A DNA stretch of 47,119 bases, taken from NCBI GenBank assembly GCA_902558075.1, contig CACECO010000010.1, positions 1 to 47,119 of the forward strand, read 5' to 3'. Below, in pieces: positions 38,197-46,891 of this stretch (positions are counted from its first letter, which is position 1; each line of letters opens with the position of its first letter). The translations under genes and the position numbers were made by a program. The notes under the pieces were generated by a model. The model was given only the letters and a program-made list of their open reading frames with translations. It was not told where the DNA came from and did not search any database. The DNA is from an uncultured Litorivicinus sp. GTDB lineage: Bacteria > Pseudomonadota > Gammaproteobacteria > Pseudomonadales > Litorivicinaceae.

Positions 38197-38284
38197 GATC
38201 AGAGTGGCTTGCAACATTGCTAGTGAGCCCTAAACAGACCCAAATCCTCGAATATCTGTTGGCGAGGTGCAAGTAAGGAATGAC

Positions 38285-40564
38285 ATGAAACAGCCCACTA
38301 CCCCTATTTTACGCGATATTGTTTTAGTCGGTGGCGGTCACACTCATGTGGGTGTGCTTCGAAATTTTGCGATGAAAAAAATGCCTGGTGTGCGTCTTAC
38401 TGTGATTTGTCGCGACACGCATACGCCTTATTCGGGTATGTTACCCGGCTATGTAGCAGGTCACTATCAATACGATGACGTACATATTGATTTGCGTCGA
38501 TTGGCGGAGTTTGCCGATGCGCGGTTTTTTCGTAGCGAAGTAGTGGGTCTTGATCGTCACACCGACCAAGTCCTCTGCAGTGATCGCCCACCCGTGCGCT
38601 ATGATCGGCTGTCTATAAATATTGGCTCAACCCCTAATCGCACCGAAATTGGCAGTGAGGGCACTCGAACCATCCCAGTGAAGCCCATTGGTGAATTCAA
38701 CGCACGTTGGCTAGCATTATTAGCTCGGGCGCAAACGCAGCCCGGATCGATGCACATTGCCTTGGTGGGTGGTGGCGCCGGTGGAGTTGAATTGATTCTC
38801 GCCATGCATAAACGCCTGCGCCATGAATTAAGTCTTCTCGATAAAGATCCCAATACACTAAAGTTTAGTTTATTCACGCGAGGCGCTTCGATCTTGCCTA
38901 CGCATAATCACTCAGTACAGCAAAGGTTTATACAGACTCTTCGATGTCGTGGTATAGCATTGCATGCTAATGCTGCTGTCGTAGCCGTTGATGACTCTGG
39001 CCTAACAACCGTCAATGGTGAGTACCATTCGGTTGATGAAGTGATTTGGGTGACTCGGGCCGGTGGCGCGAGTTGGCTTAAAGAGACGGGTCTGTCACTC
39101 GATGCTGATGGGTTTATCGAGGTCACCAATACGCTGCAAACAATCACAGATCAAAATATTTTTGCGGCAGGTGACGTAGCCACTATGGTTAACCATCCCC
39201 GCGAAAAAGCTGGCGTCTTTGCCGTGCGTCAGGGTCAGCCACTAGCACGCAATCTGCGCCGGTCGCTCGAGAATAACTCGCTTCGAGACTATCATCCGCA
39301 GCGCAATTGGCTGGCGTTGATCAGTACTGGCGATAAATATGCGGTGGCTTCACGTGGTAACTTTTATGCTGCAGGTGCCTGGCTATGGCGGTGGAAAGAC
39401 TTCATTGACCGACGCTTCATGGCGAAGTTCAACGATTTACCTGCTATGGAGGACAACGCGAGTTCGCCGGTTCATTCCAAAGTAGCGTTGGCGGGCGAGG
39501 AAGCTCAGCAGGCTATTTCAGCAATCGCCATGCGCTGCGGCGGCTGTGGTGCAAAAGTTGGTGCCTCAACATTAAATAGAGCACTAAGTGTCTTACGGCC
39601 GGTGGAGCGCGACGATGTATTGATCGGTTTACATGCTCCTGATGATGCTGCAGTTGTTCGCGTGCCTCATGGCAAAGCTGTGGTGCATTCGGTCGACTTC
39701 TTTCGTTCGTTTATTGATGACCCCTATATCTTTGGACAAATCGCGGCGAACCATGCCCTTGGCGATATCTTTGCGATGGGCGCCGAGGCACAATCTTCGA
39801 CCGCTATTGCAACTGTTCCACAAGGCCTCGAATCCAAAGTAGAAGACACCCTGTTTCAAATGATGTCGGGCGCTATCGATGTCCTCAATGATGCCAACTG
39901 CGCCCTAGTTGGAGGCCACACCGGCGAAGGCCAAGAACTTGCATTGGGCTTCGCTATTAATGGTCTAATTGATGATCGATCGGATGAGATAATGCGTAAA
40001 GGAGGCATGCGTCCCGGTGACGTCTTGATCCTGACGAAGCCTATCGGCACCGGTACTTTGTTTGCCGCGCACGCTCGTCTAGAGGCAAAGGGTCGTTGGA
40101 TAGACGATGCTTTACAATCAATGCGCCACTCGAATCGTTTGGCGGCTGAATGTCTCCGTCGGTTCGAGGCAACTGCTTGCACAGATTTGACAGGCTTTGG
40201 GTTGCTGGGACACCTGGTTGAAATGACAAGGCCTTCCGAGGTTGATGCCACCATCTATCTGTCAGCTTTGCCAATTTTAGAGGGTGCTGAAAAGACCGCG
40301 GGAGCCGGAATTTTGAGTTCTTTACAACCAGCTAATGTGCGTTTACGCCGAGCGATTCGCAAAGTGGAGACGATGGTCAAGCATCCACGCTATCCTTTGG
40401 TATTTGATCCACAAACTGCTGGTGGCTTGTTGGCTAGCGTGGCCGCCGACCATGCAGATGCTTGTGTGCGCGAGCTCATCTCACTTGGTTACTCCCAAAC
40501 TCGCATAATTGGTGCCATCCATCCAAAGGGAGATAGCCTTGAACCTATTACTCTACTCCACTGA
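38285..40564 (+). CDS. selD: NADH-dehydrogenase-like / selenophosphate synthetase fusion (SenC/SelD)
   Basis: The 759-residue protein starts at ATG 38285, 5 nt after AAGGA. Residues 1-400 form an FAD/NAD(P) oxidoreductase of the type II NADH dehydrogenase kind: DIVLVGGGHTHVGVL at the N-terminus, IALVGGGAGGVELILAM near residue 160, and IFAAGDVATM near residue 295. Residues about 415-755 are selenophosphate synthetase. The catalytic pair is in CGGCGAKVG (residues about 418-426; Cys and Lys, no Sec), followed by the metal Asp in APDDAAVV, VDFFRSFIDDPY, and ANHALGDIFAMGA. It makes selenophosphate from selenide and ATP. The oxidoreductase half may supply reduced selenium. Beside senB and senA it fills the senC role. 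It converges on senB with a 17-nt overlap. Confidence 0.93.
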   Translation: MKQPTTPILRDIVLVGGGHTHVGVLRNFAMKKMPGVRLTVICRDTHTPYSGMLPGYVAGHYQYDDVHIDLRRLAEFADARFFRSEVVGLDRHTDQVLCSDRPPVRYDRLSINIGSTPNRTEIGSEGTRTIPVKPIGEFNARWLALLARAQTQPGSMHIALVGGGAGGVELILAMHKRLRHELSLLDKDPNTLKFSLFTRGASILPTHNHSVQQRFIQTLRCRGIALHANAAVVAVDDSGLTTVNGEYHSVDEVIWVTRAGGASWLKETGLSLDADGFIEVTNTLQTITDQNIFAAGDVATMVNHPREKAGVFAVRQGQPLARNLRRSLENNSLRDYHPQRNWLALISTGDKYAVASRGNFYAAGAWLWRWKDFIDRRFMAKFNDLPAMEDNASSPVHSKVALAGEEAQQAISAIAMRCGGCGAKVGASTLNRALSVLRPVERDDVLIGLHAPDDAAVVRVPHGKAVVHSVDFFRSFIDDPYIFGQIAANHALGDIFAMGAEAQSSTAIATVPQGLESKVEDTLFQMMSGAIDVLNDANCALVGGHTGEGQELALGFAINGLIDDRSDEIMRKGGMRPGDVLILTKPIGTGTLFAAHARLEAKGRWIDDALQSMRHSNRLAAECLRRFEATACTDLTGFGLLGHLVEMTRPSEVDATIYLSALPILEGAEKTAGAGILSSLQPANVRLRRAIRKVETMVKHPRYPLVFDPQTAGGLLASVAADHADACVRELISLGYSQTRIIGAIHPKGDSLEPITLLH

Positions 40565-41519
40565 CCTTATGGATTACTGCTAGCAGAGCATCTTTTTCTG
40601 CTTCCGGGGTGTAACGTGATGCGAGTTCACGACATCTATCAGTTAATAACGAACGAAAGGCGAAATCAGACTCAAACTTCGTCATCATCGCCGCTAAGGC
40701 TACCGAATCGCCGGTCGGGAAAAGACCAGGATAATCTTGCCCAAGCAATCCTGTGTTACCGGGAATATTGCTTGCGATGATCGGCAAACCTGCCACGCAA
40801 GCTTCAGAGACCACATTGGCACCACCCTCCATTACAGAGGTGATGACCATTGCCTGACTTCGTGCGTACAGGTGACGAACCGCCGTTTGTGAGACCTCGC
40901 CTAACCAACTGTAACGCTCGTTATTACTCATTTGGGCTTGTGCGGCAACGGCCCAATCAGAGGTATGAGCACGGCCAGCTTGAACGATCCGAATACGAGA
41001 ATCTACAGGTAATAAACGAGATGCCTCAGCGGCACGCAAGCTATCTTTTTCTTCACGCAAATGACCTACCACACACAATGTAAAATCACGCGCCACCGTC
41101 TTACGATAGGTCGTTGCCAAAGGCAGTGCGGATTGATAAACGATGTGTAAAATAGTGTGAAATTCTGAAGGAATATTGTGGGAGACATTGGCGTGCAAAC
41201 CTATCAAAGCGCTAGCGTAAGCCAAACTCATTCGTGTCACTTTAGGGTGGGTGTGCTGAAAACGATAGATATCAGTACCCGTGAGAACGATTATCAAGGC
41301 TCGATCTGGAAAACGGTTGGCGAATGCTGCGATGCTAGCGGCGCTCCGCCAAGCGTGGAGGGCTATCATTAAATCATATGATCGATCTTCCACGCCCCAC
41401 TGCTCAAGGATATCTATTTTATGTCCAGCCTCTCGCAGTAACCTGGACCACCGCCTTGCGGTTGCACGATTACCTGATAATGAACTCGGCGGTGCGGGCG
41501 TCACCAAAGCCATTTTCAT
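40548..41519 (-). CDS. senB: Selenosugar synthase, SenB-type glycosyltransferase
   Basis: The 323-residue GT-B fold protein starts ALVTPAPPSSLSGNRATARR, the opening of the glycosyltransferase family linked to selD in many proteobacteria. It has IIVLTGTDIYRF near residue 80, FTLCVVGHLREEKDS near residue 146, and the sugar-nucleotide site MEGGANVVSEACVAGLP near residue 240. SenB, as characterised in the selenoneine pathway, joins selenophosphate with UDP-GlcNAc to give a seleno-GlcNAc. The identification rests on this family text plus direct neighbourhood with senC and senA. It faces senA with only 26 nt between the start codons. Confidence 0.88.
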   Translation of the reverse strand: MKMALVTPAPPSSLSGNRATARRWSRLLREAGHKIDILEQWGVEDRSYDLMIALHAWRSAASIAAFANRFPDRALIIVLTGTDIYRFQHTHPKVTRMSLAYASALIGLHANVSHNIPSEFHTILHIVYQSALPLATTYRKTVARDFTLCVVGHLREEKDSLRAAEASRLLPVDSRIRIVQAGRAHTSDWAVAAQAQMSNNERYSWLGEVSQTAVRHLYARSQAMVITSVMEGGANVVSEACVAGLPIIASNIPGNTGLLGQDYPGLFPTGDSVALAAMMTKFESDFAFRSLLTDRCRELASRYTPEAEKDALLAVIHKVSGVE

Positions 41520-41545
41520 AATTGATTACCTCGCTGGAGTAAACA

Positions 41546-42865
41546 ATGATTACGACACCATCCACTCATCGCCTCACCTCCAATGTTCTGGTTGAAATGC
41601 TTGATGACGCCCGACAGCGCACCGTCGAGCTAACGCAAGATTTGCCGCCTGAGCGTCATTTAGGACCTAAGCTTAGCATCGTAAATCCACCTCAGTGGGA
41701 GATTGGGCATATTGGTTTTTTTTATGATTATTTTGTCCTCCACAAGCTTTTTGGGTTGTCAAATTTTCAAATTGCAAATGCCTCACAGCTCTACGACTCA
41801 ATGGGGGTAGCACACGATGCACGTTGGACGCTCGACTTACCTAGTATGGAAGATACGTTTGACTACTTGCGTATTATTCGTGATGCCATGGTTAGCCGAT
41901 TGCCCGAGGGTCTGACTGATTCTGCGACCAGTTATGTCTGGCAACTCGCTACGTTTCACGAAGATATGCATGGGGAGGCCTTTGCCTATACCCGTCAGAC
42001 CTTAGCTGACCAGATGCCGATGATTGTGCCACCAATCGGTGGGTTGCCTTGTTTAGATTCGGGTGATCTAAGTGGCGAAGTCTTTGTTCCTGGCGGTGAA
42101 CATACACTTGGTGCAGATGAAAATGTTGGCTTTCGTTTTGACAACGAAAAACCTGCCCATGTCCAGGCGTTTGACTCATTTACGATTGACATTTCCCCTG
42201 TAACGAACGCAGCGTTCATGCGTTTCGTTGAAGCCGGCGGTTATGAAAACCCTAATTATTGGTCAAATCGTGGCTGGGTCTGGCGAGATGCTCAAGCACT
42301 TAAAGCTCCATGTTATTGGCGTTATCATGATGCGGGTTGGCAAGTCCGTATCTTTGATCGATGGCAATCTTTGCCACTTAACGCACCTGTATGTCACGTC
42401 AGCCAACACGAGGCGCAGGCGTATTGTAAATGGGCAGGACGTCGCTTGCCGACTGAACTGGAATGGGAGGTAGCTGCAAGCCGAGTAGGTGATGGACAGA
42501 CACTTAGCCCGCACAAAATGCTTTACCCATGGGGTAACGAACCTCACGGCGCATTACTGGCTAATACGGATGGTTATCGAGTCGGTTGTGTGGATGTAGC
42601 TGCTTTTCCGAACGGTGACAGCGCCCTAGGTTGCCGTCAAATGCTCGGTAATGTTTGGGAATGGACTGCAAGCCGTTTTGGACCCTATCCTGGCTTTAGT
42701 GCGGATCTTTACGCCGAGTACTCGGAACCTTGGTTTGGGGAGGGGCGAATGGTTCTGCGTGGTGGCTCTTGGGCGACACGCAGCCGATATCTAAACAACA
42801 ACACGCGTAATTTTTTTCTGCCGGAGCGGAACGATATCATTGCTGGATTCCGTACCTGCGGTTGA
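41546..42865 (+). CDS. senA: Selenoneine synthase, SenA (EgtB-like)
   Basis: The 439-residue protein has an N-terminal DinB-like domain and a C-terminal FGE-sulfatase domain, as in EgtB sulfoxide synthases. The iron ligands are visible: H55 in EIGHIGFF, and H138 and H142 in FHEDMHGEAF. The FGE part has VPGGEHTLGADE near residue 180, GRRLPTELEWEVAA, MLGNVWEWTASRF and a final FLPERNDIIAGFRTCG. SenA forms the C-Se bond between hercynine and the selenosugar using O2. EgtB would look similar; the assignment to SenA follows from the adjacent senB and selD and the EgtD gene in the same run. ATG 41546 is the start. The transporter genes follow in the same direction. Confidence 0.88.
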   Translation: MITTPSTHRLTSNVLVEMLDDARQRTVELTQDLPPERHLGPKLSIVNPPQWEIGHIGFFYDYFVLHKLFGLSNFQIANASQLYDSMGVAHDARWTLDLPSMEDTFDYLRIIRDAMVSRLPEGLTDSATSYVWQLATFHEDMHGEAFAYTRQTLADQMPMIVPPIGGLPCLDSGDLSGEVFVPGGEHTLGADENVGFRFDNEKPAHVQAFDSFTIDISPVTNAAFMRFVEAGGYENPNYWSNRGWVWRDAQALKAPCYWRYHDAGWQVRIFDRWQSLPLNAPVCHVSQHEAQAYCKWAGRRLPTELEWEVAASRVGDGQTLSPHKMLYPWGNEPHGALLANTDGYRVGCVDVAAFPNGDSALGCRQMLGNVWEWTASRFGPYPGFSADLYAEYSEPWFGEGRMVLRGGSWATRSRYLNNNTRNFFLPERNDIIAGFRTCG

Positions 42866-42911
42866 TGGAAATTCAAATCAAAAAATTAATGGTCAAGTTA
42901 AAGGATATTCT

Positions 42912-43766
42912 ATGAAATTTTTCTGGCGCGCATTCGCACTTAATCTTCTCCTTATTTTGCACGTTCATGCCGGGGTGCTAGTTTTTACTGCTATTCCTGA
43001 TGAGGATGAGAGCAAGTTAAAAGAACGTTTCGGCCCAATGAGCGAGTATTTATCAAAGACTCTCGATATTGAGGTTCGTTATGTGCCTGTAAAGTCCTAT
43101 GCTGCGGCAGTTAGCGCATTTCGAAATGGTCAAGTTCAGCTCGCTTGGTTTGGTGCATTATCTGGCGTTCAAGCGCGCTCTACAGTACTCAATTCGCAAG
43201 CTTTGGCTCAAGGCGTTGAAGATCAAGCGTTTTGGACTTACTTAATCGCCCACAAAAGCACCGGTCTTAAAGCTGGAGATGTCATTGACAAGAGTATGCG
43301 CGGCATGACCATGACTTTCGGCTCGAAAAGCTCAACTTCAGGCAGATTGATCCCAGAGTTTTATTTGACCGAGCGGTTTGGGGAGTCACCAGATAAAGTG
43401 TTCGAAAGAGTAGGTTACAGCGGTAATCACAGTCGTACTTTACGCTTAGTTGAGAGCGGAAGTTATGATATCGGTGCTATCAATTATGCCGTCTGGGAAC
43501 GTGAGCTGGCCGCGGGCAACATTGATACTGATGAAGTCAAAGTTATTTGGAAGACGCCAGCCTATCCCAATTACCAGTGGAGCATTCGCGGAGACGTAGA
43601 TGGGCAGTTTGGTGCCGGATTTTCTGATAAAGTTAAAGCGGCCCTGTTAGCGATGGATGATCCCAAGTTACTGCAGAGCTTTGCACGAAGTGCCTTTATT
43701 CCCGCGCAGAACTCTGATTATGCACCTATAAAGCGAACCGCTAAGCAGGTTGGTTTAATCGACTGA
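42912..43766 (+). CDS. Putative selenium ABC transporter, periplasmic binding protein (PhnD-like)
   Basis: The 284-residue protein, from ATG 42912 after AAAGGA, has a signal peptide (FFWRAFALNLLLILHVHA). The mature protein is PhnD-like: LVFTAIPDEDESKLKERFGP, QVQLAWFGALSGVQARS, and the ligand-site stretch FGSKSSTSGRLIPEFYL. I remember this subgroup being annotated as putative selenate ABC transporter binding protein because of its link with selD. Phosphonate-type residues could equally bind another oxyanion, so the ligand is inference. It begins 46 nt after senA and overlaps the ATPase start (TGATG). Confidence 0.85.
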   Translation: MKFFWRAFALNLLLILHVHAGVLVFTAIPDEDESKLKERFGPMSEYLSKTLDIEVRYVPVKSYAAAVSAFRNGQVQLAWFGALSGVQARSTVLNSQALAQGVEDQAFWTYLIAHKSTGLKAGDVIDKSMRGMTMTFGSKSSTSGRLIPEFYLTERFGESPDKVFERVGYSGNHSRTLRLVESGSYDIGAINYAVWERELAAGNIDTDEVKVIWKTPAYPNYQWSIRGDVDGQFGAGFSDKVKAALLAMDDPKLLQSFARSAFIPAQNSDYAPIKRTAKQVGLID

Positions 43767-44416
43767 TGAGCCCGTTAATTCTCAATCAAGCTTATGCTGA
43801 TTTCGGTGGTACTCGGGTTTTAGGGCCGATTAGTCTGCATGTTCAACCAGGTGAACATATAGCGTTGGTGGGACGTAGCGGTGCGGGCAAAACCACGTTG
43901 TTATCCTTACTGTATGATCGCCGCCGTAGTGACATAACTTTCATCCCCCAAACCTTAGGATTGGTGGATACGCTTAGCGTATTTCATAATGTCTACATGG
44001 GGCAATTAGCTACGCACTCGGGCGCGTATAATCTAATCAATTTAATTCGACCATTTCGCACTCAAATTCGAGCAGTGACGGCCGTATTAGAACAATTGGA
44101 CATGGCGTCAACCCTTTGGAGCCGAGTCGGCGAACTTTCGGGCGGCCAACGTCAGCGTGTGGCCGTTGCCCGCTCATTGTTTCAAGATGCCGACGTGCTA
44201 TTGGCCGACGAGCCGGTATCCGCGCTAGATGGGCCACGCTCTGAAGCGGTGATGCAAGCGCTTATCAAACAGAACACTACCACCATCATTGCGATGCATG
44301 ATCTCGATTTGGCCCGTCGTTATGCCAATCGACTAATTGGCATTCAAGACGGTACTATTGCTTTAGATGCACCTAGCAGGGCGGTCAATACCCACGACCT
44401 TGATGCGCTCTACTAG
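43766..44416 (+). CDS. Putative selenium ABC transporter, ATPase (PhnC-like)
   Basis: The 216-residue ATPase has Walker A GRSGAGKTT (36-44), signature LSGGQRQRVAVARSL, Walker B VLLADEPVSALD and the switch His in IIAMHDLDLA. It is slightly shorter than typical PhnC (about 250) but complete. The start overlaps the binding-protein stop by 1 nt, and the end overlaps the permease start by 14 nt, so the three transporter genes are translationally coupled. Confidence 0.9.
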   Translation: MSPLILNQAYADFGGTRVLGPISLHVQPGEHIALVGRSGAGKTTLLSLLYDRRRSDITFIPQTLGLVDTLSVFHNVYMGQLATHSGAYNLINLIRPFRTQIRAVTAVLEQLDMASTLWSRVGELSGGQRQRVAVARSLFQDADVLLADEPVSALDGPRSEAVMQALIKQNTTTIIAMHDLDLARRYANRLIGIQDGTIALDAPSRAVNTHDLDALY

Positions 44417-45917
44417 ACCGGAACACAAGCGCTGGAGTGTGCTGTCAGCACCGTTGGTGCGCACCAGCTTATGGCTACTCGGAATTGCACTAGTTTGTGT
44501 TTGGCTGGCTGATCTCCAAATTCGATCAACTGCGCCCTGGAGCGAATTAGCTCGTTTTGGCCGAGGTTTAATACAGCCTGATTTTGCAACTTTTGATACG
44601 GCGATTGTTGCTCTAACTCGAACACTAGCCTTTGCGTTCACTGGCGTAGGCGCCGCGGCTGTTTTGGGTATGGGTTTGGCCTTGATTTTTCATTACCGAG
44701 TCGTGCGAATTTTTTGTGCATTCGTTCGCTCCATCCATGAACTGTTTTGGGCACTTATTTTTTTGCAGTTTTTTGGTCTACACCCCATCACTGGCGTTTT
44801 AGCTATAGCACTACCTTACGCGGCGACCTTCGGGCGAGTATATAGCGAAATTCTTGAAGAAGGTGATCGCGGTGCAGTGGAGGCTCTATCAGCTCATAGT
44901 GGTCTAATTTCAATATTCTGGTATGCGCGCGTGCCTGATCTTTGGGCGCACCTTACCAGCTACACTAGTTATCGCTTTGAGTGCGGTATGCGCTCAAGCG
45001 CTGTACTTGGTTTTGTCGGTATGCCAACGCTAGGATTTTACCTGGAGAGTTCTTACGCCGAGGGCCAATATGGTGAAGTCGGAATGATATTGCTTATATT
45101 TTTAATAACTATCGGAAGCCTTAGACTATGGTTACGACCAAAACTAGTCGTTCTCTACTTACTAGCTGCTCCTTTTTTACTAGGCGCTGGTTTGCCTATT
45201 GTGTGGGGCAATGCCACACGGTTTTTTACTGTGGATATCATTCCCTCGCCACTACGTAATGGTGAGGGTGTTGCGGGTTTGGCATCGTGGTTAGGCGATT
45301 TACTATTGTATCAAGCATTACCTGGCATTGGTACCACGCTCGTGCTCACGCAAATTGCGCTGGTGGGCACTGGAATCGTTGCTTTACTGACTTTCCCTTT
45401 AATTTCTCGATTGTTTGTCGACCGTTTTCGTCAGGTGCCTGGGCATGGACTTTTGATAATTGGTCGCTCAGTGCCTGAGTATCTGCTAGCGTATATCCTA
45501 CTACAACTTTGGGGACCGTCTATGCTACCGGCGGCAGTAGCATTAGTTATTCACAACGGTGCCATCATTGGCCATCTCATTGGGCGTCAAAGTAGCACCC
45601 TCAGACTTAGACCTGACGTTGTCGGTGGCTTTAACTGCTACACCTATGAGGTAGTACCCCGACTTTATCGATCGTTCCTATCTTTTTTACTATATCGTTG
45701 GGAAATAATCATGCGTGAGACGGCAATTCTTGGGATATTAGGTATTACGACACTTGGATTCTACGTCGATAGCGCTATTCAAGAACTACGCTTTGATCGA
45801 GCTCTCGTACTGATATTTATTACCGCACTGCTAAACATTGGTGTTGACTCGCTAGCGCGCACTATTCGTTGGCAACTACGTTTGCGCACAACACCAGCAA
45901 AACTTGAGGCAGTTTAA
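44403..45917 (+). CDS. Putative selenium ABC transporter, tandem permease (PhnE-like fusion)
   Basis: From ATG 44403 the protein has 504 residues and two permease halves in tandem, each about the size of one PhnE. The EAA-type loop of the first half reads EALSAHSGLISIFWYARVPD, followed by FECGMRSSAVLGFVGMPTLG. The second half has CYTYEVVPRLYRSFLSFLLY, followed by RWEIIMRETAILGILGITTL. The repeated R..A.LG..G..TLGFY.. signature confirms duplication and fusion. One chain thus supplies both membrane halves of the importer. The upstream in-frame ATG at 44367 is less likely because it extends the overlap with the ATPase gene. Confidence 0.88.
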   Translation: MRSTRPEHKRWSVLSAPLVRTSLWLLGIALVCVWLADLQIRSTAPWSELARFGRGLIQPDFATFDTAIVALTRTLAFAFTGVGAAAVLGMGLALIFHYRVVRIFCAFVRSIHELFWALIFLQFFGLHPITGVLAIALPYAATFGRVYSEILEEGDRGAVEALSAHSGLISIFWYARVPDLWAHLTSYTSYRFECGMRSSAVLGFVGMPTLGFYLESSYAEGQYGEVGMILLIFLITIGSLRLWLRPKLVVLYLLAAPFLLGAGLPIVWGNATRFFTVDIIPSPLRNGEGVAGLASWLGDLLLYQALPGIGTTLVLTQIALVGTGIVALLTFPLISRLFVDRFRQVPGHGLLIIGRSVPEYLLAYILLQLWGPSMLPAAVALVIHNGAIIGHLIGRQSSTLRLRPDVVGGFNCYTYEVVPRLYRSFLSFLLYRWEIIMRETAILGILGITTLGFYVDSAIQELRFDRALVLIFITALLNIGVDSLARTIRWQLRLRTTPAKLEAV

Positions 45918-45919
45918 GT

Positions 45920-46891
45920 ATGTTTTCAACTAGTTCACAAACAAATTTGGGCAGCAATGTGCAAACACTAGGAGAGGCACTTGTTGAGGCACTAGAACGA
46001 CCCGAGCATCGTATTTCACCTATTTGGTTTTATGACGAACGTGGCTCAGCACTTTTCGAAGACATCACCCAGCTTCCAAGTTATTACTTGACGCGAACTG
46101 AAATCAAAATTCTCGATGACAACTTAGAGGAAATTTCCAGAGCCATTGGCCGTGACCGGTTAGTGATAGAATTGGGGAGTGGATCGAGCCGAAAGACATT
46201 TCGTCTACTCAAGGCTCTTGATCAGCCAGCGGGCTACGTGCCTGTGGACATCTCGGCAAAATACCTGCATCAATCAGCTGCTAGGCTATCCAGCAAATTA
46301 CCATCGTTGCCTGTCGTGGCGTTGATTGCTGACTTTACAACGGAGTTTCAATTACCACCATCGTTGCCTCCACATCGTAACCGGTTAGGTTTTTTCCCAG
46401 GCTCGACTGTTGGTAACCTAGAGGTGACTGAGGTGCAATCCTTGTTAATGCACTGCCACAAAATGTTGGGCGATGAGGCTACATTTTTGATTGGCGTCGA
46501 TCTTGATAAATCGCCTGAAGTATTGATTTCCGCTTATGACGACCCGGAGGGTGTCACGGCTGAATTTAATCGTAATCTTTTGAAGCGAATCAACCGCGAA
46601 CTCGGTCTTGTAATTGATCCAAGCGCTTTTGCTCACGAGGCACGCTATTTAACCAATCCGGCAAGAATCGAAATGCACCTTGTAGCTACAGTAGATCAGA
46701 CGTTTGAAATCTCCGATAGGACATATAAGTTAGAAGCAGGCGAAAGCTTTCACACCGAAACCTCCCATAAATATACTGTCGAAGATTTTTCAAGACTTGC
46801 TGAAACAGCGGGCTGGGAACTAACCCACTATTGGTGCGATACCGAAAAACGTTTTGCTGTTCTGCTCCTCAAAGCCACCAAGGTGAAATGA
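45920..46891 (+). CDS. egtD: L-histidine N-alpha-methyltransferase
   Basis: EgtD methylates histidine three times with SAM to hercynine, the betaine used by EgtB or SenA. This 323-residue protein has full family length. It carries IWFYDERGSALFEDITQLPS, YYLTRTE with the substrate-pocket Tyr, the SAM site VIELGSGSSRKTF (82-94), FPGSTVGNLE, and HTETSHKYTVEDFSRL near residue 277 that holds the histidine-binding acid/Ser. It starts 2 nt after the permease stop and closes the operon. Its presence means hercynine for SenA is made from the same transcript. No egtB, egtC or egtE is present in the window. Confidence 0.93.
   Translation: MFSTSSQTNLGSNVQTLGEALVEALERPEHRISPIWFYDERGSALFEDITQLPSYYLTRTEIKILDDNLEEISRAIGRDRLVIELGSGSSRKTFRLLKALDQPAGYVPVDISAKYLHQSAARLSSKLPSLPVVALIADFTTEFQLPPSLPPHRNRLGFFPGSTVGNLEVTEVQSLLMHCHKMLGDEATFLIGVDLDKSPEVLISAYDDPEGVTAEFNRNLLKRINRELGLVIDPSAFAHEARYLTNPARIEMHLVATVDQTFEISDRTYKLEAGESFHTETSHKYTVEDFSRLAETAGWELTHYWCDTEKRFAVLLLKATKVK

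Follow-up and report, generated by a model that had tools for sequence, protein, structure and literature searches.

A probable selenoneine gene cluster with a candidate selenite importer and its own EgtD in an uncultured Litorivicinus

Introduction

Contig CACECO010000010.1 from an uncultured Litorivicinus sp. (Gammaproteobacteria), analysed here over its entire 47119 bases (the window), belongs to a metagenome-assembled genome (MAG) of 1.5 Mb that is 72.4% complete. Towards one end it carries seven genes that encode a selenophosphate synthetase (SelD) fused to a flavoprotein, the selenoneine enzymes SenB and SenA, a periplasmic binding protein, the ATPase and the permease of an ATP-binding cassette (ABC) importer, and the histidine methyltransferase EgtD. 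The locus raises the question of whether these genes form one pathway leading from the uptake of selenium to selenoneine and, if so, which selenium compound would be imported. According to a passage of a 2022 review, the high-affinity transport system for selenium had not yet been identified (PMC9312934).

The locus is probably a selenoneine biosynthetic cluster equipped with a selenium uptake system and a hercynine supply of its own. This interpretation rests on family membership, signature residues, positions in phylogenetic trees and the association of the importer with selenium genes across genomes. Together with related loci, it singles out a candidate family of selenium transporters and a candidate ligand, selenite. 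If this is right, the seven genes would make up a portable module covering all steps from selenium uptake to selenoneine, an antioxidant of nutritional interest.

Association of the importer with selenium use

Gene families were called from scores against the curated NCBIfam cut-offs, complemented by Pfam. The binding protein belongs to family TIGR04553, which NCBI names a 'putative selenate' binding protein, so that the link with selenium is not new as a name. No study characterising members of TIGR04553 as selenium transporters was found in the open-access literature searched.

The class to which the window belongs was surveyed through 274 genomes from 222 genera, each genome being counted as independent in the hypergeometric test. 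TIGR04553, SelD and SenA exceed their cut-offs in 13, 62 and 18 of them, respectively. All 13 genomes carrying the binding protein have SelD (2.9 expected; P = 1.4e-9), that of G209 being split at contig ends, and eight have SenA (0.85 expected; P = 7e-8, or 0.004 within the SelD genomes alone). In contrast, SelD is found in only 5 of the 24 genomes whose best match to TIGR04553 is weaker (100–250 bits), which is close to the base rate. The five TIGR04553 genomes devoid of SenA carry SelA and/or SelU. Conversely, neither SelA nor SelU exceeds its cut-off in five of the eight genomes with both SenA and the importer (that of the window, G266, G126, G154 and G247), and selenoneine is there the sole selenium use among the SelA, SelU and SenA pathways tested. 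This cannot safely be extended to the Litorivicinus host, because its MAG is incomplete (72%), so that absences from it mean little, and because a sister Litorivicinus genome has SelU (355 bits) and, as its single SelD, the fusion protein; both points weigh against the overall reading of the locus.

A second view was obtained from 80 named loci, the best 80 of at least 579 relatives of the binding protein (595 pattern matches) in a scan of 84,980 species; they therefore represent the near end of a larger family. Genes for PhnC and PhnE are both present in 78 of these loci, SelD in 46, SenB in 34, SenA in nine and EgtD in five. The sequence-only reading of this DNA had stated that its link between importer and selenium would fail if homologues of the binding protein occurred mostly without sen genes. 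Neither SenB nor SenA lies within 10 kb, as far as the contig reaches, in 46 of the 80 loci; yet 51 have some selenium gene (SelD, its NADH dehydrogenase-like half, SenB or SenA) on the stretch. SelD is present in at least 66 of the 80 genomes, namely in 46 on the locus itself and in all 20 that were searched whole among the 34 without SelD on the stretch. SelA or SelU exceeds its cut-off in 22 of the 23 SelD-holding genomes tested, the exception (G323) showing no more than partial matches to SelU and to the SenA family.

The neighbourhoods of the importer are diverse. In Pseudomaricurvus, the SelU gene sits between SelD and the importer, and in Vreelandella utahensis (L140), the importer accompanies the SelD fusion, SenB and OvsA, an enzyme that yields an ovoselenol-type 5-selenohistidine. 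The binding protein was also found in 17 plasmid records, of which ten were inspected and nine are annotated. On two Paracoccus plasmids the importer adjoins selA, selB and a formate dehydrogenase, and on a Sphaerotilus plasmid it lies between mnmH and selD. Selenium neighbours (SelD, SenB, selU or selA) thus occur in Alpha-, Beta- and Gammaproteobacteria. These contexts, together with the SelU of the sister genome, led to the rejection of an importer restricted to selenoneine, and the earlier description of the unit as 'dedicated to selenoneine' is not supported. The importer tracks selenium use, not selenoneine specifically; as judged from these genomes, it is very likely a selenium importer.

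Other frames near importers or related to them were noted. After PhnE, L159 (13223–15249) and L165 (3504–4688) have a frame that, read by eye, resembles a PatB/MalY-type C-S lyase and possibly belongs to another selenium pathway; a methyltransferase-like frame, also read by eye, occurs in L159. Two families of neighbouring frames in Marinobacter (F8 and F10) gave no NCBIfam match and were taken as genus-level synteny. The host genome encodes a second, weak PhnD-like binding protein (G000:C5:18707-19213; 64 bits on TIGR04553), perhaps part of a phosphorus importer.

Binding pocket and predicted ligand

The structure model of the window binding protein (mean predicted local distance difference test score, 91.9) has PDB entries 7s6g, 5lq8 and 5lq5 as its best matches, and picocyanobacterial PhnD1 is the best match in both sequence and structure. 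The residues that hold phosphite in Prochlorococcus PhnD1 are given in PMC5700983. They correspond one to one to D30, Y63, F107, S141-T142-S143, H173, N191, N220 and Y221 of the window protein. The PhnD1 residues Y46, S126-T127-S128, H158, D13, N176 and the capping Y206 are all kept, D205 alone being replaced by Asn. The ten-letter string of pocket residues is identical in 69 of the 80 named loci; the window and the remaining 11 loci depart from it only by the same Asp-to-Asn change. This variant also occurs in some picocyanobacteria (PMC10284923).

An importer of phosphite, methylphosphonate or phosphate, whose selenium neighbours would have no functional meaning, has to be weighed at this point. 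The pocket is kept across the whole family, and the solved PhnD1 chains, from Prochlorococcus and from Synechococcus MITS9220, themselves exceed the TIGR04553 cut-off of 250 (5lq5, 302 bits; 7s6g, 334 bits). In a quick tree built without bootstrap, they fall inside the over-cut-off group (Shimodaira–Hasegawa-like approximate likelihood ratio test, 93), where they form the sister lineage of its main part (98); proteins from genomes with SelD branch on either side of them. The earlier reading had also named binding of phosphonate or phosphate by homologues as a reason to abandon the selenium link. These two solved members do bind both; their highest measured affinity is for phosphite, phosphate and methylphosphonate being bound more weakly (PMC5700983, PMC10284923). 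Against a phosphorus importer stand the association with SelD that separates the TIGR04553 genomes from those with weaker homologues, and the selenium neighbours in three proteobacterial classes. Moreover, no phosphite or phosphonate catabolic gene was found among the seven genes of the locus or annotated in the nine plasmid contexts, for which the PLSDB gene tables are incomplete, and Synechococcus WH8102 and MITS9220 are reported to grow on neither phosphite nor methylphosphonate (PMC10284923). A phosphorus importer is thus judged quite unlikely.

If selenium is the cargo, the pocket bears on its chemical form. Phosphite and selenite are both pyramidal, and the pocket is unable to discriminate between them, as far as its residues tell; selenite is therefore predicted as the ligand, rather than selenate. 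The alternative cargo, selenate or an organic selenium compound, has the NCBI family name in its favour. Selenate is, besides, a major oxic form of dissolved selenium. The pocket nevertheless favours a pyramidal ion with three oxygens: in the nearest solved structures, phosphite is preferred to tetrahedral phosphate by two to four orders of magnitude in one study (PMC5700983) and at least tenfold in another (PMC10284923), and the capping tyrosine closes the pocket, so that neither a larger tetrahedral anion nor an organic group would be expected to fit well. Selenate or an organic compound is accordingly an unlikely cargo, although somewhat less so than a phosphorus compound.

Four observations pull away from a selenite importer. 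No selenium gene was found on the stretch in 29 of the 80 named loci, partly owing to contig ends, nor within 8 kb in six of the nine annotated plasmid contexts. The two PhnD1 proteins are measured phosphorus binders that lie inside TIGR04553. Finally, 7s6g was solved with phosphate bound, indicating that tetrahedral anions are not shut out.

SenA and the predicted product

SenA belongs to the EgtB superfamily, and with EgtD in the same locus the product could in principle be ergothioneine. The window protein exceeds the cut-off of the SenA model (Table 1) and remains below that of the EgtB model (TIGR03440; 319 bits for a cut-off of 360). In a maximum-likelihood tree of 68 rows, it falls into a SenA/OvsA group apart from EgtB (96/97), and not with true EgtB enzymes, the grouping that had been named as evidence for ergothioneine. 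It belongs there to a five-row group (100/100) that also holds the G266 sequence, two Halomonas rows and a near relative. The tree carries a long-branch warning on the EgtB side. Since SenB and SelD are also in the cluster, ergothioneine is an extremely improbable product and was rejected on the basis of the cut-offs and the tree.

The distinction from OvsA, which would make the product an ovoselenol-type 5-selenohistidine or another selenohistidine, relies on other evidence. The comparison of two OvsA entries with the SenA of Variovorax paradoxus provided a signature: where OvsA has M and Q-A, V. paradoxus SenA has Y and N-F, and so does the window protein (Y392, N422-F423). PDB 8u41 carries M and Q-A, as do 22 natural rows of OvsA type; in the remaining SenA rows, Y is combined with N-F, N-Y or T-Y. 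Furthermore, the window SenA lies outside the OvsA clade (100/100), and a same-strand EgtD gene stands in its run, hercynine being the substrate of SenA (PMC10891094). A selenohistidine product is therefore very unlikely, and a selenoneine product, as had been proposed, is supported by these sequence comparisons.

Some of the data fit this assignment poorly. The nearest PDB sequence to the window SenA is OvsA (292 bits, versus 230 for V. paradoxus SenA). OvsA is nested among the SenA lineages, whose deep order the tree does not settle and which it does not show as a single clade (2 changes). The SenA cut-off fails to split SenA from OvsA, as 19 of the 27 over-cut-off matches in 50 other genomes carry the OvsA signature. 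Likewise, Y is combined with N-F, N-Y or N-W in EgtB-like rows, so that the signature is uninformative against EgtB.

Two arguments were dropped on these grounds. The SenA cut-off is not used as a proof of selenoneine synthesis, since OvsA-type sequences of Marinobacter pass it too, and Y/N-F is retained only against OvsA, since 12 of 13 EgtB-like rows have it, the remaining one showing N-Y.

Related arrangements of these genes were seen elsewhere. Marinobacter loci (L088-L097 and others) associate the SelD fusion, SenB and the importer without any SenA on the stretch; the idea of a new pathway is mostly explained by OvsA-type genes located elsewhere in those genomes. In a symbiont of Taylorina sp. 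(G218; L064:2983-6765 and L159), an OvsA-type gene adjoins a canonical SelD, a divergent SenA follows 1.2 kb further on, and a block made of the SelD fusion, SenB and the importer lies about 10 kb away. The 25 kb plasmid pMPOP01 of Methylorubrum populi (L197) carries senB-senA beside an IS6-like transposase; its SenA match covers only residues 9–392 of the 439 of the query.

SenB, the SelD fusion and EgtD

SenB retains the lysine equivalent to K158 of V. paradoxus SenB. The motif EGGAHV, named for SenB in PMC10891094 and present in V. paradoxus, was not found; the window has EGGANV, and EGGAN occurs in all 48 non-Variovorax SenB sequences examined, including that of the window. In 33 of the 34 loci that have both, the genes for SenB and for the binding protein are on opposite strands. 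On plasmid pBPS33-1 of Hydrogenophaga sp. BPS33 (L201), senB adjoins a gene of the EgtB/PvdO family amid genes for resistance to arsenic, chromate, copper and mercury.

The SelD half of the fusion retains the Cys and the Lys of its N-terminal motif, CGAK being aligned to CGCK of Escherichia coli; both are presumably the catalytic residues. The fusion scores 466 bits against the 'fusion not SelD' model TIGR04369, below its cut-off of 700. Four SelD frames of other genomes (G319:C19, G311:C76, G252:C4 and G134:C3) contain one in-frame TGA and probably encode selenocysteine-containing proteins.

The window EgtD aligns over its full length with that of Mycobacterium smegmatis. EgtD is encoded by all 18 SenA genomes of the class survey, in eight of them on the same stretch as senA. 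Its position next to senA fits an enzyme using hercynine, and its earlier designation as a source of hercynine is supported by these data.

A model of the pathway

Combining these elements, the following scheme can be proposed. The binding protein, whose pocket would suit a pyramidal XO3 anion, would capture selenite (HSeO3- or SeO3 2-), and PhnC and PhnE would bring it into the cell. Cytosolic reductants would then reduce selenite to selenide, perhaps with the help of the flavoprotein half of the SelD fusion. SelD would convert selenide into selenophosphate, from which SenB would make the selenosugar, while EgtD would convert histidine into hercynine. SenA would finally couple the selenosugar and hercynine oxidatively, which would lead to the release of selenoneine.

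Picocyanobacterial PhnDCE

The relationship with PhnD1 extends the question to marine picocyanobacteria, in which the presence of PhnDCE was termed paradoxical (PMC10284923). According to the same study, phnD1C1E1 is not induced by phosphorus starvation, and its authors conclude in favour of a transporter of phosphate that is constitutive; selenium is nowhere named in the main text of the article. Prochlorococcus marinus and Synechococcus carry a selD homologue extended by an NADH dehydrogenase-like part, which was left out of the true orthologues by the authors who described it (PMC1273633). This extension defines the same type of fusion as in the window, although the cyanobacterial proteins may belong to TIGR04369. 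Three Prochlorococcus strains have an orphan SelD, and an ABC ATPase is among the genes found near orphan selD (PMC5029168). Both leads would fit a picocyanobacterial selenium importer.

It may be tentatively proposed, as a possibility that is less than probable, that the whole TIGR04553 PhnD/C/E lineage carries out high-affinity selenite uptake by reusing a phosphite-type pocket and serves the selenium pathway present in each genome, be it selenoneine, ovoselenol, selenouridine or selenocysteine synthesis. The core PhnD1-C1-E1 of marine Prochlorococcus and Synechococcus would be the same importer, its binding of phosphite being a by-product of shape. If true, this may explain why marine picocyanobacteria retain a phosphite-binding PhnDCE though the tested strains cannot use phosphite, and would tie the commonest phototrophs of the ocean to selenium uptake.

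Organization of the locus

All seven frames are unbroken, as first described, and five of them (SelD fusion, SenB, SenA, binding protein and EgtD) exceed NCBI cut-offs (Table 1). The family matches agree with the identities initially given to the genes, PhnC and PhnE staying below the phosphonate cut-offs.

Table 1. Genes of the putative selenoneine locus (window positions; NCBIfam cut-offs in parentheses)
Gene product	Position	Strand	Family evidence
NADH dehydrogenase-like flavoprotein fused to SelD (selenophosphate synthetase)	38285..40564	+	TIGR03169, 495 bits (310); TIGR00476, 290 bits (125)
SenB, selenosugar synthase	40548..41519	-	TIGR04348, 383 bits (300)
SenA, selenoneine synthase (EgtB superfamily, non-haem iron)	41546..42865	+	NF041186, 476 bits (420)
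Periplasmic binding protein with signal peptide, predicted selenite binder	42912..43766	+	TIGR04553, 392 bits (250)
PhnC-like ABC ATPase, short form, 216 residues	43766..44416	+	best NCBIfam match PhnC, 170 bits (below 266); PF00005
PhnE-like tandem permease, 516 residues	44367..45917	+	TIGR01097 in two stretches, 194 bits (below 217)
EgtD, histidine N-alpha-trimethyltransferase (hercynine supply)	45920..46891	+	TIGR03438, 358 bits (290.9); PF10017

The SelD fusion has an alternative in-frame GTG start at 38267, and the start of the binding protein was taken as the ATG at 42912, within a listed frame that begins with a TTG at 42840. The phnE frame overlaps phnC, and a later start is possible; the family of PhnE-like frames spans 87 loci with a median of 502 residues. 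The seven genes had been taken for one overlapping operon. Five of them (senA, binding protein, phnC, phnE and egtD) do form a same-strand run, with overlaps at both ends of phnC, a gap of 46 bases after senA and of 2 bases before egtD. However, senB lies on the minus strand and the SelD fusion stands outside the run. The 3' end of senB shares 17 bases with the end of the SelD fusion gene; senB and senA are divergent, 26 bases separating their start codons. The contig ends 228 bases past egtD. Neither the promoter scan (six sites) nor the terminator scan (ten sites) rose above shuffled sequence, and the Rfam scan gave no match.

Boundaries, recurrence and portability

Positions 38250–46873 align as one piece, with 78% DNA identity, to a second gammaproteobacterial MAG (L087). 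The L087 flanks (5.3 kb upstream and 2.1 kb downstream) have no match to the window, apart from an unrelated 78-residue tblastx match (27%), and the downstream frames, whose translations were read by eye without any search, resemble ccmA, ccmB and ccmC. As the conserved block stops at the seven genes while the flanks differ, these genes behave like a unit that has been relocated. The portability once suggested for the locus agrees with this behaviour, but no mobility determinant accompanies it: frames read by eye near the block revealed no transposase, integrase or flanking repeat, and the longest matches between the flanks are 8 bases (direct) and 11 bases (inverted), direct matches in shuffled sequence averaging 8.8 bases and reaching 13 at most. 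Composition is a weak sign of recent transfer. The G+C content of the block is 48.8%, versus 44.0% elsewhere in the window and at most 47.0% in 149 other window stretches of the same length, without any shift at third positions.

The complete seven-gene set recurs in four of the 80 named loci (L087, L132, L136 and L163), one of them alphaproteobacterial; L132 and L136 come from the same genomes as G266 and G154 of the class survey. The order of the genes is not constant across the four, nor is the strand of EgtD. The closest named relative of the binding protein (95% identical) is from a single-cell genome of an uncultured Litoricola (now Litorivicinus). In that genome, the second half of the locus is found with 96% DNA identity, up to the end of the contig concerned.

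Comparison with known systems

Compared with the known sen clusters, the locus is a more complete variant, and what is new is the selenite argument drawn from the pocket and the link with picocyanobacterial PhnDCE. As in the sen cluster of V. paradoxus (senA, senB and senC/selD), SenA, SenB and a selenophosphate synthetase are encoded together, and SenA and SenB share the Y and N-F signature and Lys158, respectively. Unlike in V. paradoxus, SelD carries a fused NADH dehydrogenase-like domain, the cluster also comprises EgtD and a three-gene importer, SenB has EGGAN, and SenA lies on another deep branch, being 36% identical to the SenA of G107, which groups with 8k5i.

The importer belongs to the same family as the NCBI 'putative selenate ABC transporter' systems and has their usual order of binding protein, ATPase and permease, but it lies between senA and egtD and its pocket points to selenite, not to selenate. 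It shares with picocyanobacterial PhnD1-PhnC1-PhnE1 the TIGR04553 family, the tree group and the pocket, whereas the latter system adjoins tesA (PMC10284923) and is a measured phosphorus binder. Finally, the OvsA cluster of V. utahensis has the same SelD fusion, SenB and importer as the window, with OvsA in place of SenA and no EgtD on the retrieved stretch.

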